Shown: one piece after another, positions 32,491-63,715 of the stretch | How positions within the stretch are numbered: position 1 is the stretch's first letter | How the letters are laid out: each line of letters begins with the position of its first letter | Source: Nitrogeniibacter mangrovi | GTDB lineage: Bacteria; Pseudomonadota; Gammaproteobacteria; Burkholderiales; Rhodocyclaceae | Assembly (NCBI RefSeq): GCF_010983895.1 | Contig: NZ_CP048836.1 | Location: 620,001-684,000, forward strand | Reading direction: 5' to 3' | DNA: 64,000 nucleotides | Made by a program: the position numbers and the translations under genes | Notes under the pieces: generated by a model | Database searches by the model: none | What the model was told of the DNA's origin: nothing | Seen by the model: the letters and a program-made list of their open reading frames with translations, nothing else

Positions 32491-33108
32491 TCAGCGTCGG
32501 CGTTTCGGCGCCCACGAGAGCAGGGTCAGGCCAGCCAGCAGCATTGCCCACACGGTGGGTTCCGGCACGACGCTGATCGTCGAGCCCGGCGACATCGAAC
32601 CGTCGCTCAGGGTGAGTTGACCGTGCGGGGACAGTGCGATGCTGCCGCCGGCCTGCGCGGCCGGACCGCCGTCTCCCGACCGGGTGGCATCGCTCCACAG
32701 CGTGAGCCGACTTCCCGGTGACAGTGCGATGCCGTCACCGGCCAGTGCGACAGGGCCGCTATCTGTCCATCGGATGGTATCGCCCGAGTGGGTGGGCGGC
32801 ACGCCAAGGGAAATGGCGCCATCGGCGCTGAGCCTGCCCGCAACGTTGATCTGTAAAGCATCCAGCATGATCGCAGGCGCCCTCAGCGTCGCGTCGATCA
32901 CTTCGATGCGGGTGTCGGAGTGCACCCAGATGGATTCGTCGGCACTCAGCGCATTGCCGTCGAGCACGAGGTCGCCGCTGCAGGCGATGCGCGTGTTGGC
33001 CCCGTCGATGAAACTCAGGTCGCCGTCGCACGACAAGGGGTCGGCATGGGCCGGGGCCATGGTCAGGGCGAGGCCGGTAGCGAGGGCGAGCAAGTGTCCG
33101 GTGTTCAT
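32491..33108 (-). CDS. PEP-CTERM sorting domain protein (beta-rich)
   Basis: Predicted 205-residue secreted protein. An N-terminal signal peptide ends near APAHA. The body is rich in short beta-type repeats, such as GIALSPGSRLTLWSD and SIALSPHGQLTLSDG. The C-terminus has VPEP, a hydrophobic helix (TVWAMLLAGLTLLSW) and a basic tail PKRRR, the tripartite PEP-CTERM signal recognised by an exosortase. ATG 33108 gives the signal peptide directly. It is isolated between hslU and an AEC transporter. The function of the mature protein is unknown; a surface or matrix role is inferred from the sorting signal. Confidence 0.85.
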   Translation of the reverse strand: MNTGHLLALATGLALTMAPAHADPLSCDGDLSFIDGANTRIACSGDLVLDGNALSADESIWVHSDTRIEVIDATLRAPAIMLDALQINVAGRLSADGAISLGVPPTHSGDTIRWTDSGPVALAGDGIALSPGSRLTLWSDATRSGDGGPAAQAGGSIALSPHGQLTLSDGSMSPGSTISVVPEPTVWAMLLAGLTLLSWAPKRRR

Positions 33109-59793: not shown

Positions 59794-59986
59794 GGCGTGT
59801 GTCTCCGGGGGAGGGGTCGGCGTATTGTGCCGCGATCGCGCCGTCATGGCGACTGTCGACCCGACGCGCATGCGCCCCGTGGGCACAATCCGGCGCCCGG
59901 CGGCGCAACATGTCACAGTCCCGTGGCCGGGTCGCCGCATATACTCGAAGACTATTCAGTCAAAGCAACGACGGGGACAGGGGTTC

Positions 59987-62800
59987 ATGTTTGACATGTC
60001 GGCAGTGGCACGGCGGATTCGCCTCGGCGTATGCGTCATTTCGGTCGCAGCGAGCCTGCCGGCAGTGGCCGGCGATCCGGCCAAGGCGGCTGCCTATTAC
60101 GAAGACGGGCTGACGCGGTTCGACAAGGGCGACAATCCCGGCGCCGTCATCCAGCTCAAGAATGCGTTGCAGCAGGATCCGTCCATGCTCTCTGCCCACG
60201 TACTGCTGGGGCGGGCGCTGCTCAAGGAGACCGAGCTGCCGGCCGCCGAGGCCGCTTTCGAACAGGCGCTGAAGCTCGGCGTCAGTCCGGTGGAAATCGC
60301 CGCGCCGCGCGCGCGTTTGCTGATGATGCTGGGGCGCAGCAAGCAGCTGTTGCGCGACGTCTCGCCCAACGGTCTGATGGGCGACGACCTAGTCGAAGTG
60401 CTGACCCTGCGCGCCAAGGCGCAGTCGCTGGAAGGCGATCGGGCCGCCGCGCTGGCGGGTTTCGAAGCCGCGATCCAGACCGATCCGAGCTCGCCGCGCC
60501 CGTATCTGGATCTGGTGCCTTTCCTGATCCAGGGCGGTGACCTGAAGGGGGCGGACGCGCGGGTCCAGACGCTCATGCGCATCGCCCCCGACAATGCGGA
60601 CACCTGGAACCTGAGCGCGTCGCTACACCATGTGCGTGGCCGTCTGAGCGAGGCGCTGGTGGACTACGACAAGGCCCTGTCCATCGACCCGAACCATACC
60701 GACGCCCGGGTGGCGCGCGCCTCCCTCTATGTGGATCGCAAGCAGGATGACAAGGCCCGCGTCGATCTCGACTATCTGGCCGAGCATGCGCGCCGGGAAC
60801 CGCGCTCCGCCTACCTGCGAGCCCTCGTCGCCGCGCGTGCGGGCGATCAGGAGGGTGCCCACAAGGCACTGACCGAAGTGGCCGGGCTCGTCGACTCGCT
60901 TCCGGGCGAGTACGTGGCGGCCAACGAGCAACTGCTCATGCTCGGCGCCCTCGCGCACCACGGCCTCGAATCACGGGAGAAGGCCAAGGAGTACCTCGAC
61001 ACCCTGCTGCGCCGCTTCCCGCGCAACCTGGGGGCACGCAAGCTGCTGGCCGCCATCTATCTGGACGAAAACGACAACGCGCGCGCGCTGTCGACCGTCG
61101 AGCCGGTGCTCGAAGCGCAGCCCAACGATCCGCAGGCGAACCTGCTCGCCGGGCGCGCCCATCTGGGCTACCGCCACTTCATCCAGGCGCGCGAGCTGCT
61201 TACGCGGGCCGTCAAGTATCTCGACAAGGGGCCCCAGGCCCTGTTTGCCCTTGGCCTGAGCCAGCTCGGGATGGGTGATACCGCCGTCGCGATCGACAAC
61301 CTGGAGAAAGCCGCGGCCGCCGATCCGGGTGACGTGAGCATCGGCACCGCGCTGATCACTGTCTACATGCAGCGCGGCGCAACGACCAAGGCACTCGCAC
61401 ATGCCGAGGCACTGGTCGCCAAGGCGCCGAAGAGCCTGCCGGCGCTCAACCTGCTCGGCTCGGTCCGGGCGGCTGCGGGTCAGCCGGACAAGGCGGCGAA
61501 GGTGTTCGAACAGGCGCTGGCGCAAGATCCGAAGTTCGCGCCCGCGCTGTTGAATCTGGTGCGCGTGGAGGTGGAGCTGGGGCGCGTCGATGGCGCCGAG
61601 GCCCGGCTCCAGGCCTGGTTGAAGGAAGAACCCAACGATGCCCGCGCCATGTTCGAGATGGGGCGCATTGCCGAGCAGCTCGGCCGGCAGAAGGAGGGCA
61701 TCGACTGGCTGCGCAAGGCGGCCTCGAAGCAGCCCGGGCAGGCCCAGCCGGCACTGGCCCTCGTTGAGGCCTTGTCACGGGCGGGGCAGCCGGCCGAGGC
61801 GCTCACTGCGGCCAAGGAGGTCGGGCTGCGCCATCCGGACGACCTGGGGGTTCAGGCCGTCCTCGGCCAGGCCTACCTCGCGGCGGGGGATCCCAAGGCG
61901 GCTCGGCAGACCTTTCGCAACATGACCCGCATCGCCGAGTTCGATCCAGCGGCCCAGGTCCGCATCGGCCGCCTCATGCTCGGCGCCGGCTTCCCTGACG
62001 ACGCTGAATACAATCTTCAGAAGGCCTTGACCGCGCGCACCGATTTCGCTCCGGCGCATGCGCTGGCCATCGACATCGCCCTGCACCGGGGACAGGTCGA
62101 CACGGCGCGCAAGGCGCTGGAGGCTTTGCGCAAGTCGGCACCGAATGATCCCGGTCTGCTGCGCTATCAGGGCACCATCGCGCTGGCCTCCGGCGACGGG
62201 CCGGCTGCGCTCAAGCACTTTGCGCAGCAGTACCGTGCGCATCCGGACGCTCGTGCGGCCCTGAACCTGTCGGCTGTGCAGGAGCGCCTCGGCGATCTGG
62301 CCGCCGCCGAGGCGACCTTGCGCGATGAACAGGCACGCCACGCCACGCCGGTCATCTACGATGCCTTGGGCCAGATCCTGGAGCGGCAGGCGAAATGGGC
62401 CGAAGCGCGGGACGCGTACCGGCGTTTGCTGCGCGACGCGCCCGATAGTCCCGGTATCCTCAACCGGCTCGCGCGGGTGCAGTTCGAGCTCAAGGACGCC
62501 GGCGCCATGGCCACCGCCGACAAGGCCCGTGCGCTGGCGCCGAACGATCCGCGCGTGATCGATACCGTGGGCTGGCTGCGACTCCAGTCGGGGGATGTGG
62601 ACGGGGCACTCGCCCTGCTGCGTGACGCACGCTTGCGGGCGCCGGGCCTGCCCGAGATCCGTTACCACCTTGCCGAGGCGCTCGCTCGCAGCGGACGGAC
62701 CGGCGAAGCCGAGGCCGAGCTGGCCGCAGCGCTCGCCGATGGCCGGGGTTTTCGGGGTGCCGACGAGGCGCGTGCGTTGCAGCAGCGGCTGCAAAAGTGA
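59987..62800 (+). CDS. prsT: PrsT-like TPR-repeat protein of the PEP-CTERM/exosortase system
   Basis: 937 residues, close to the roughly 900 of the PEP-CTERM-associated TPR family. A signal peptide (RIRLGVCVISVAASLPAVAG) precedes about twenty or more TPR-type helical pairs (for example YYEDGLTRFDKGDNPGAVIQ, ALSIDPNHTDARVARASLYV, GWLRLQSGDVDGALALLRDA). The family is often called a lipoprotein, but no clear lipobox is seen here. ATG 59987 has ACAGGGG upstream; a second ATG at 59996 is possible. Its neighbour is a PEP-CTERM gene. TPR proteins of this kind are thought to assist exopolysaccharide-linked sorting; the exact role is not known. Confidence 0.85.
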   Translation: MFDMSAVARRIRLGVCVISVAASLPAVAGDPAKAAAYYEDGLTRFDKGDNPGAVIQLKNALQQDPSMLSAHVLLGRALLKETELPAAEAAFEQALKLGVSPVEIAAPRARLLMMLGRSKQLLRDVSPNGLMGDDLVEVLTLRAKAQSLEGDRAAALAGFEAAIQTDPSSPRPYLDLVPFLIQGGDLKGADARVQTLMRIAPDNADTWNLSASLHHVRGRLSEALVDYDKALSIDPNHTDARVARASLYVDRKQDDKARVDLDYLAEHARREPRSAYLRALVAARAGDQEGAHKALTEVAGLVDSLPGEYVAANEQLLMLGALAHHGLESREKAKEYLDTLLRRFPRNLGARKLLAAIYLDENDNARALSTVEPVLEAQPNDPQANLLAGRAHLGYRHFIQARELLTRAVKYLDKGPQALFALGLSQLGMGDTAVAIDNLEKAAAADPGDVSIGTALITVYMQRGATTKALAHAEALVAKAPKSLPALNLLGSVRAAAGQPDKAAKVFEQALAQDPKFAPALLNLVRVEVELGRVDGAEARLQAWLKEEPNDARAMFEMGRIAEQLGRQKEGIDWLRKAASKQPGQAQPALALVEALSRAGQPAEALTAAKEVGLRHPDDLGVQAVLGQAYLAAGDPKAARQTFRNMTRIAEFDPAAQVRIGRLMLGAGFPDDAEYNLQKALTARTDFAPAHALAIDIALHRGQVDTARKALEALRKSAPNDPGLLRYQGTIALASGDGPAALKHFAQQYRAHPDARAALNLSAVQERLGDLAAAEATLRDEQARHATPVIYDALGQILERQAKWAEARDAYRRLLRDAPDSPGILNRLARVQFELKDAGAMATADKARALAPNDPRVIDTVGWLRLQSGDVDGALALLRDARLRAPGLPEIRYHLAEALARSGRTGEAEAELAAALADGRGFRGADEARALQQRLQK

Positions 62801-62823
62801 ATGCCGCACGGGAGAATAACGTG

Positions 62824-62846
62824 TCGGAAAATCTGACGCTTTCCGA
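62824..62846. promoter_or_regulatory. Inverted repeat, candidate upstream activator site
   Basis: TCGGAAA and TTTCCGA are separated by 9 bases, centred about 90 bp before the transcription start expected from the sigma-54 promoter at 62901-62916. That is the normal place for binding by a sigma-54 enhancer-binding protein. It could also be a weak hairpin after the preceding gene. Confidence 0.5.
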
Positions 62847-62900
62847 TCGGTTTCTATGCGGCTGTTCGGCAAGTGCATGAATTAAAACAAAATCTACGTC

Positions 62901-62916
62901 TGGCACTAACTTTGCT
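62901..62916 (+). promoter_or_regulatory. Sigma-54 (RpoN) promoter of the PEP-CTERM gene
   Basis: TGGCACTAACTTTGCT matches the -24/-12 consensus (TGGCAC-N5-TTGCW) at every scored position, with GG at 62902-62903 and GC at 62914-62915 at exact spacing. The start of transcription would be near 62926, about 30 bp before the ATG, with GGAG at 62944-62947. Confidence 0.9.
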
Positions 62917-62956
62917 TAATATTTGCCAAACGAATCCGTAACCGGAGATTTCAAAA

Positions 62957-63715
62957 ATGAAAAAGCTTCTCACGACCGCCCTGGTGTCGATGGCGGCGGT
63001 GATCAGCCTGCCGGCGATGGCGACCGGGGGCTCTTACTACACTGCCTACAACAAGAGCACCCACTGTGGTGGCGGTTCCACTGAGCCGTCCTGCCCCACC
63101 TACAACCTCACCGATGCGGGGTCGTCCGGTAATGCCCTGGTGTCGCTGGATGCCTACTACAATACCAGCGGGTCAAGCACCCTGAACGATGCCTACTCCA
63201 TGACCTACTACAGCGGCAGTGGTTATGGCGTGAAGGCCACCAGCACCGACGGCACGAGCCCCCAGCACGCGGTGGACAACTCGGGTGACTACGAGTGGCT
63301 GATGCTCAGCTTCGATCAGGCCGTGAGCCTGGACAAGATCACCCTGGGCTGGATCTCCGGCGACGCCGACATCACGGTGATGGCCGCCGGCGCACCGTCC
63401 AATGACCTGAGCGGCTGGAACTTCATCGAGAACCTGTATTACGGCAACGGCGGCAGCCAGTTCTCCACCGACAGCTACGGGCGTACCGTGGCCTCGCTGA
63501 CAAACGAAGTGTGCGCCTCCTACTGGCTGATCGGCGCCATCAACCCGGCGTATGCCTCTTCGATGTACGTCGGCAACGACTTCTTCAAGGTGTATTCGGT
63601 TCAGGCCTGCACCAACTGCGGGCAGCCGGGCACCGGTGTTGCCGAGCCGGGTTCGCTCGCGCTGGCCGGCATCGGTCTTCTCGGAGTCTTTGGATTGCGT
63701 CGCCGTCGTTCCTGA
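62957..63715 (+). CDS. PEP-CTERM sorting domain surface protein
   Basis: 252 residues. A signal peptide (MKKLLTTALVSMAAVISLPAMA) is followed by a Ser/Gly/Tyr-rich body with four or more cysteines (THCGGGS, EPSCPTYN, NEVCASYW, QACTNCGQ). The C-terminus has AEPGSLALAGIGLLGVFGL and then RRRRS, the PEP-CTERM pattern (here AEP for PEP) sorted by an exosortase. Spacing of cysteines and size recall exosortase-dependent protein families such as XDP1, but I cannot fix that. Expression is expected to depend on RpoN. It is followed by an intrinsic terminator. Confidence 0.9.
   Translation: MKKLLTTALVSMAAVISLPAMATGGSYYTAYNKSTHCGGGSTEPSCPTYNLTDAGSSGNALVSLDAYYNTSGSSTLNDAYSMTYYSGSGYGVKATSTDGTSPQHAVDNSGDYEWLMLSFDQAVSLDKITLGWISGDADITVMAAGAPSNDLSGWNFIENLYYGNGGSQFSTDSYGRTVASLTNEVCASYWLIGAINPAYASSMYVGNDFFKVYSVQACTNCGQPGTGVAEPGSLALAGIGLLGVFGLRRRRS

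Follow-up and report, generated by a model that had tools for sequence, protein, structure and literature searches.

A composite sigma-54 promoter with a predicted PrsR-binding box precedes the XDP1 surface protein gene of Nitrogeniibacter mangrovi and illustrates helical phasing of the PEP-CTERM box

The gene for XDP1, an exosortase-dependent surface protein of Nitrogeniibacter mangrovi, is preceded by a composite promoter that combines a -24/-12 element for RpoN (sigma-54) with a predicted binding box for the response regulator PrsR. It is found near the end of the 64,000-nucleotide stretch of DNA analysed here (the window; contig NZ_CP048836.1, positions 620,001 to 684,000), and its elements are listed in Table 1. 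Control of XDP1 by RpoN and PrsR is well supported on sequence grounds, and we put the probability that a complete PrsK-PrsR-RpoN switch explains this promoter at about 90%. An earlier note on this DNA had suggested such control, with the prediction that the protein would be made only under matrix-forming conditions; the control itself is supported by a PrsR-type box at the modal distance, by the presence of PrsR, PrsK, and RpoN in the genome, and by the conservation of both the box and the -24/-12 site in 16 of 16 XDP1 relatives (the best 16 of 29 non-self matches). In this switch, the membrane kinase PrsK would respond to a presumed signal by phosphorylating PrsR, as predicted from the families of the two proteins. 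PrsR would bind the 17-nt box and contact the RpoN-containing RNA polymerase waiting at the promoter, with the 62-nt spacer aligning the two sites along one face of the helix. In many promoters of this type, IHF would bend the DNA between them. After export, the XDP1 product would be sorted by an exosortase, with XrtA as the most likely one.

Table 1. Features of the prsT-XDP1 region (positions are those of the window)
Feature	Positions	Strand	Remarks
prsT-type TPR gene	59987-62800	+	562 bits with the PrsT family (cut-off 312.2); next gene upstream of XDP1
Predicted PrsR-binding (PEP-CTERM) box TGTCGGAAAATCTGACG	62822-62838	+	17 nt; shared with other genes and with relatives
Weak IHF-like site CAAGTGCATGAAT	62870-62882	+	matches 7 of 9 positions of the consensus; centred 19 nt upstream of TGGC
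Sigma-54 -24/-12 promoter TGGCACTAACTTTGCT	62901-62916	+	exact GG-N10-GC core; TGGCAY/TTGCW
Expected transcription start	62926-62928	+	predicted, 12 nt past the C of GC
Ribosome-binding site GGAG	62944-62947	+	read in the sequence
XDP1, exosortase-dependent surface protein	62957-63715	+	252 aa; signal peptide, body mainly of beta strands, AEPG sorting tail at the C-terminus

In the promoter TGGCACTAACTTTGCT, the GG (62902-62903) and GC (62914-62915) are 10 nt apart, and the ATG (62957) lies 40 nt downstream of the element. The previous description of this site as an RpoN consensus with exact spacing, some 40 bp before a gene with a clean ribosome-binding site, is confirmed in both respects. 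The pattern TGGCACN5TTGCT has 13 matches in the 4.24-Mb genome, part of which fall within long open frames, versus none for the read-backwards control. Transcripts from sigma-54 promoters usually begin about 12 nt past the GC element, hence the expected start in Table 1. Within positions 62701 to 63000, neither a sigma-70-like promoter nor a terminator was found, the gap between prsT and XDP1 included.

The best family of the downstream open reading frame is XDP1 (NCBIfam NF041927), with 185.4 bits against a cut-off of 125. The C-terminal PEP-CTERM signal passes the Pfam cut-off (PF07589, 24.8 bits; cut-off 20.7) but not that of TIGR02595, where its score is 0.3 bits short (15.7; cut-off 16). 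The sorting motif is A-E-P-G, not the near-invariant Pro-Glu-Pro, and the protein is not the floc protein PepA, reaching 15.6 bits with the PepA family NF033554 (cut-off 80). The 15 aligned relatives share 26 to 43% identity with XDP1, and 14 of them have PEP and one has AEPG. The predicted structure, a modest model with a mean pLDDT of 66.7, is largely built of beta strands, with one helix at the N-terminus and another at the C-terminus; PDB chains gave no match to the XDP1 family profile at E values up to 1. The prsT-type gene next door was scanned as 59960-62797, with a predicted start codon. It is one of two PrsT-family genes in the genome; the other, stronger one (792.6 bits) is located beside prsR-prsK at C1 ~3.1416-3.1444 Mb (L204:8636-11425).

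Relatives of XDP1 are found in 21 of 61 genomes, including that of N. mangrovi itself. The 13 non-self matches beyond the best 16 are weaker, partly tail-only or located in very long frames. Nine of the 16 relatives come from congeners, all nine with a box-to-TGGC spacer of 61 to 63 nt and eight with TCTGACR in the box; the boxes are of the TGACG type within the genus and of the TTACA type in several others. In 15 of the 17 loci tested, XDP1 follows a PrsT-like gene, the exceptions being L062, which starts near a contig end, and L066, where no match was found. This gene order and the lack of a terminator in the gap would be consistent with XDP1 being transcribed mainly by read-through from prsT, with the sigma-54 site minor or vestigial. 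Such an explanation is quite unlikely, since a vestigial site would decay, whereas the promoter and the box are retained over XDP1 divergence down to 26 to 46% protein identity. Also, in Aquincola tertiaricarbonis (PMC9850573), the pepA promoter is rpoN1-dependent and prsT is unaffected, although the gene order there is reversed.

The box TGTCGGAAAATCTGACG, 62 nt upstream of the TGGC of TGGCACTAACTTTGCT, had been overlooked in the earlier note. Its 3' end is TGACG, whereas that of most other copies is TTACA; the other copies in this genome end with TTACA, TTTACA, TTACG, or TGACA. A 17-mer of the form YGTCGRNNNWTYTKACR combined with a -24/-12 site is found before 7 PEP-CTERM genes, the XDP1 gene among them, and is absent before the other 18 of the 25 genes tested, i.e., those above the Pfam cut-off in the genome. 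The earlier note had named a shared element before most PEP-CTERM genes as support for a regulon; in the genome scan, it precedes not most of them but 7 of 25. The seven sites score 23 to 25 out of 25 against a background maximum of 20 in 209 windows, and the 25/25 of the XDP1 site is partly due to construction, the consensus having been drawn after this and related sites were seen. With a fixed pattern of box and -24/-12 site, there are 9 places in the genome, versus 0 for the control: 5 before PEP-CTERM genes and 4 elsewhere (L044, L045, L047, and L048). With a looser box, the spacers are 62, 62, 63, 64, 72, 84, and 107 nt before PEP-CTERM genes and 72, 64, and 64 nt before other genes. The box at L028 (score 20) lies within the open reading frame and was left uncounted. 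An inverted repeat upstream of the XDP1 gene, TCGGAAA/TTTCCGA, was a candidate for the enhancer but was set aside in favor of the 17-mer common to other genes.

Among the composites located elsewhere, the one at L048 (C1:3840535) is followed by the gene of a filamentous adhesin (NF012204, 173.8 bits; cut-off 60; seen also in L203), which is not a PEP-CTERM protein by the part of it that was read. The composites at L044 and L047 precede genes whose products look exported by their N-termini. The L044 product (C1:1185537) has 272 aa, an RR-type N-terminus, and no family match, and the next gene on the 3' side is a small PqqD-like one, whose 18.4 bits stay below the cut-off of 35. Apart from the adhesin, the genes downstream of the non-PEP-CTERM composites matched no family above cut-off among those tested. 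The composite at L045 (C1:1202037), which lies within a reverse frame of 422 aa and has an off-phase 58-nt spacer, was rejected as a chance match; it also has no good IHF site.

Profile searches show that the genome encodes PrsR (TIGR02915, 751.4 bits; cut-off 502.6) and, adjoining it, PrsK (TIGR02916, 836.5 bits; cut-off 300). The second PrsT (cut-off 312.2) and an EpsB2-type glycosyltransferase of the XrtA system (539 bits; cut-off 393.35) are adjacent to them, at C1 ~3.14 Mb. There is a single RpoN (one PF04552 match, 226.7 bits), two exosortases, XrtA (332.4 bits; cut-off 208) and XrtB (429.1 bits; cut-off 275), and both IHF alpha and IHF beta. The PrsR profile has about 30 long matches in the genome, from 751 to 251 bits, followed by fragments, and a single one of these is above the PrsR cut-off. 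The -24/-12 site might thus be used by a different enhancer-binding protein from this family, a reading to which the deviation of the XDP1 box from the TTTACA type also points. Still, this box has its length, spacing, and 5' half in common with the PrsR-associated one, which also stands before six further PEP-CTERM genes. In XDP1 relatives, the same promoter is accompanied by boxes of both types, TGACG within the genus and TTACA in several others. An activator other than PrsR is very unlikely.

The spacer between the box and the promoter is quantised in whole turns of the helix, up to 84 nt. A scan of genome contigs for the box, a gap of 46 to 76 nt, and the promoter returned at least 120 loci. 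Among the 121 sites in the matches listed, 18 have spacers of 51 to 54 nt, 73 of 59 to 65 nt, and 30 of 72 to 76 nt, the last cluster being clipped by the edge of the scanned range, and there are none at 46 to 50, 55 to 58, or 66 to 71 nt. Judging by their titles, the records among these matches come from alpha-, beta-, gamma-, and deltaproteobacteria and from relatives of Nitrospira. PEP-CTERM-box composites are also found in metagenome-assembled genomes titled Klebsiella pneumoniae (L132) and Asaia bogorensis (L102), labels that may be wrong. A scan with gaps of 34 to 94 nt in 150 genomes of the order gave 50 sites in 24 genomes and none in the control: 4 sites at 50 to 52 nt, 37 at 62 to 65 nt, 7 at 73 to 76 nt, and 2 at 83 to 84 nt, with none outside these ranges. 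In a further scan, at 78 to 138 nt, there are eight sites in 6 of the 150 genomes, at 83, 84, 96, 97, 98, 105, 118, and 134 nt. The first two of these repeat sites from the preceding scan, and phasing beyond 84 nt is not established, with 96 to 98, 118, and 134 nt giving a poor fit to whole turns or none. The strict box used in the latter two scans matches 0 sites in the genome of N. mangrovi itself. In all scans, the sites are not mutually independent and the period and offset were fitted on the same data, so the figures are offered as counts, not as P values.

It is highly unlikely that this phasing is an echo of shared descent, as opposed to a contact made from the same face of the helix. 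Non-independence of the sites, several of which come from one genus (e.g., Massilia), and the limitation of the 46- to 76-nt figures to the matches listed would agree with descent. However, the clusters, 10 to 11 nt apart, each contain records of different classes, all 13 sites outside the main cluster of the 34- to 94-nt scan are one or two turns away from it, and the half-turn positions are empty, as descent alone would not leave them. For the XDP1 site, the notion that TGGCACTAACTTTGCT is a chance match in the prsT-XDP1 gap can be practically dismissed, with nothing of weight on its side beyond the genomic copies in long open frames, and with the empty control and the conservation in the best 16 relatives against it.

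Alignment of the spacers reveals a third element, between 31 and 20 nt upstream of TGGC, which resembles the reverse of WATCAANNNNTTR, which we take to be the IHF consensus. With the centre 18 to 22 nt before TGGC, at least 8 of the 9 consensus positions are matched in 58 of the 120 sites listed (shuffles: mean 1.5, maximum 6) and at least 7 in 88 of the 120 (mean 12.5, maximum 21), the 100 shuffles being dinucleotide-preserving where the walk succeeded and mononucleotide otherwise. The enrichment is replicated in 10 of 29 further sites that have no spacer in common with the first set (shuffles: mean 0.5, maximum 3). Both orientations of this asymmetric site centre at -20/-19, where the centre, the W base, was defined after the positions of both orientations had been seen; this choice agrees with the IHF crystal structure. 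In the XDP1 promoter, the match at this place is of a quality reached by ~10% of the shuffled spacers and alone is not significant. Other PEP-CTERM composites of the genome have 8 of 9 matches at -19 (L023) and -20 (L024), 9 of 9 at -29 (L019), and 8 of 9 at -42 (L027), and the spacers of L021 and L031 have no match of 8. The predicted bend may belong to sigma-54 promoters in general and have a generic origin, because 3 of the 11 other TGGCACN5TTGCT sites (L006, L009, and L012) have IHF matches of 8 to 9 of 9 at -18 to -20 and no PrsR box; these 11 are the genomic sites minus two PEP-CTERM ones, and some lie in open frames.

The composite promoter is distributed unevenly among the 25 PEP-CTERM genes. 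When their C-terminal tails are sorted by eye, it precedes 6 of 10 genes with LALLGLG-type tails and 1 of 15 others (Fisher P 0.007; under an earlier reading of L036, 6 of 9 and 1 of 16, P 0.003). Presumably, LALLGLG-type tails are served by XrtA and YAMLLAGL-type tails by XrtB. The genome's PepA-family gene (136.5 bits; cut-off 80) has a tail of the non-LALLGLG type, maps ~5 kb away from exosortase B, and lacks a composite promoter. The floc protein PepA as the target does not hold up here: the PepA homologue lacks the site, and the gene that has it in the window encodes XDP1. A further PEP-CTERM gene in the window (32509-32568, minus strand; C1:652509-652568, L038) has the tail PEPTVWAMLLAGL and no composite. 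Across genomes, a PEP-type open reading frame is found downstream of 68 of the 120 composite loci listed, two of them with Y or W third after PEP, figures for which no background was taken.

The XDP1 promoter belongs to the already described control by PrsR and the PEP-CTERM box; the phasing and the place of IHF go beyond what is known. According to Haft et al. 2006 (PMC1569441), 99 of 167 proteobacterial PEP-CTERM genes are preceded by a sigma-54 motif 2 and, upstream of it, a 17-nt motif 1 with the 3' end TTTACA; the spacer averages 62.8 nt (SD 10.6, range 32 to 92), and the mean distance from promoter to start codon is 71 nt (SD 38.5, minimum 23). That paper named PrsK, PrsR, and PrsT and assigned the "PEP-CTERM box" to PrsR; IHF is absent from its main text, and section 7 gives the spacer as a mean and SD, with no periodicity. 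The XDP1 promoter is similar to this regulon in its 17-nt box, 62-nt spacer, -24/-12 site, 40-nt distance to the ATG, and association with PrsK, PrsR, and PrsT; it differs in the TGACG end of the box and in preceding an XDP1 gene with an AEPG tail. Judged by length, 3' end, and spacing, the 17-mer may correspond to motif 1 as described there, the XDP1 copy sharing the 5' half and the place of the other copies but ending with TGACG. In A. tertiaricarbonis, the rpoN1-dependent pepA promoter was mapped by primer extension, and, as here, a -24/-12 site precedes a PEP-CTERM gene beside prsT, with a predicted enhancer upstream (PMC9850573). The difference is that pepA lies there upstream of prsT, whereas XDP1, which is not PepA, lies downstream. 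The control of a PEP-CTERM gene of Zoogloea resiniphila by RpoN and PrsK-PrsR (PMC9012009, citing Gao et al. 2018) agrees with what had been said of Zoogloea before. Sigma-54 promoters assisted by IHF, for example those under NifA (reviewed in PMC7057263), have a layout of enhancer site, IHF site, and -24/-12 element similar to that of the composite promoters. Here, however, the activator would be PrsR, the box is close (62 nt), and the IHF match is strong in about half of the sites listed and weak in the XDP1 promoter.

Overall, the PEP-CTERM box probably represents one part of a three-part, helically phased assembly, in which the PrsR box would lie whole turns away from the promoter (~52, 63, 74, or 84 nt) and IHF would bend the DNA at a point ~19 to 20 nt upstream of TGGC (near -46), whichever way its asymmetric site is oriented. 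The switch would serve mainly genes with LALLGLG-type tails, the presumed XrtA substrates, leaving those with YAMLLAGL-type tails, presumably handled by XrtB, outside. Both helical phasing and IHF are well known from sigma-54 control in general; for the PEP-CTERM box, a description of neither the spacer phasing nor the fixed place of IHF was found among the open-access articles searched. The quantised spacer and the place of IHF offer a sharper rule for true PrsR targets, as illustrated by the sole in-frame composite in the genome (L045), because it is off phase and has no good IHF site. The data provide concrete evidence for which PEP-CTERM genes of this genome fall under PrsR and which do not, and the known floc protein PepA falls outside the PrsR switch in this organism. 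Such PrsR targets matter for the floc cohesion of activated-sludge bacteria.
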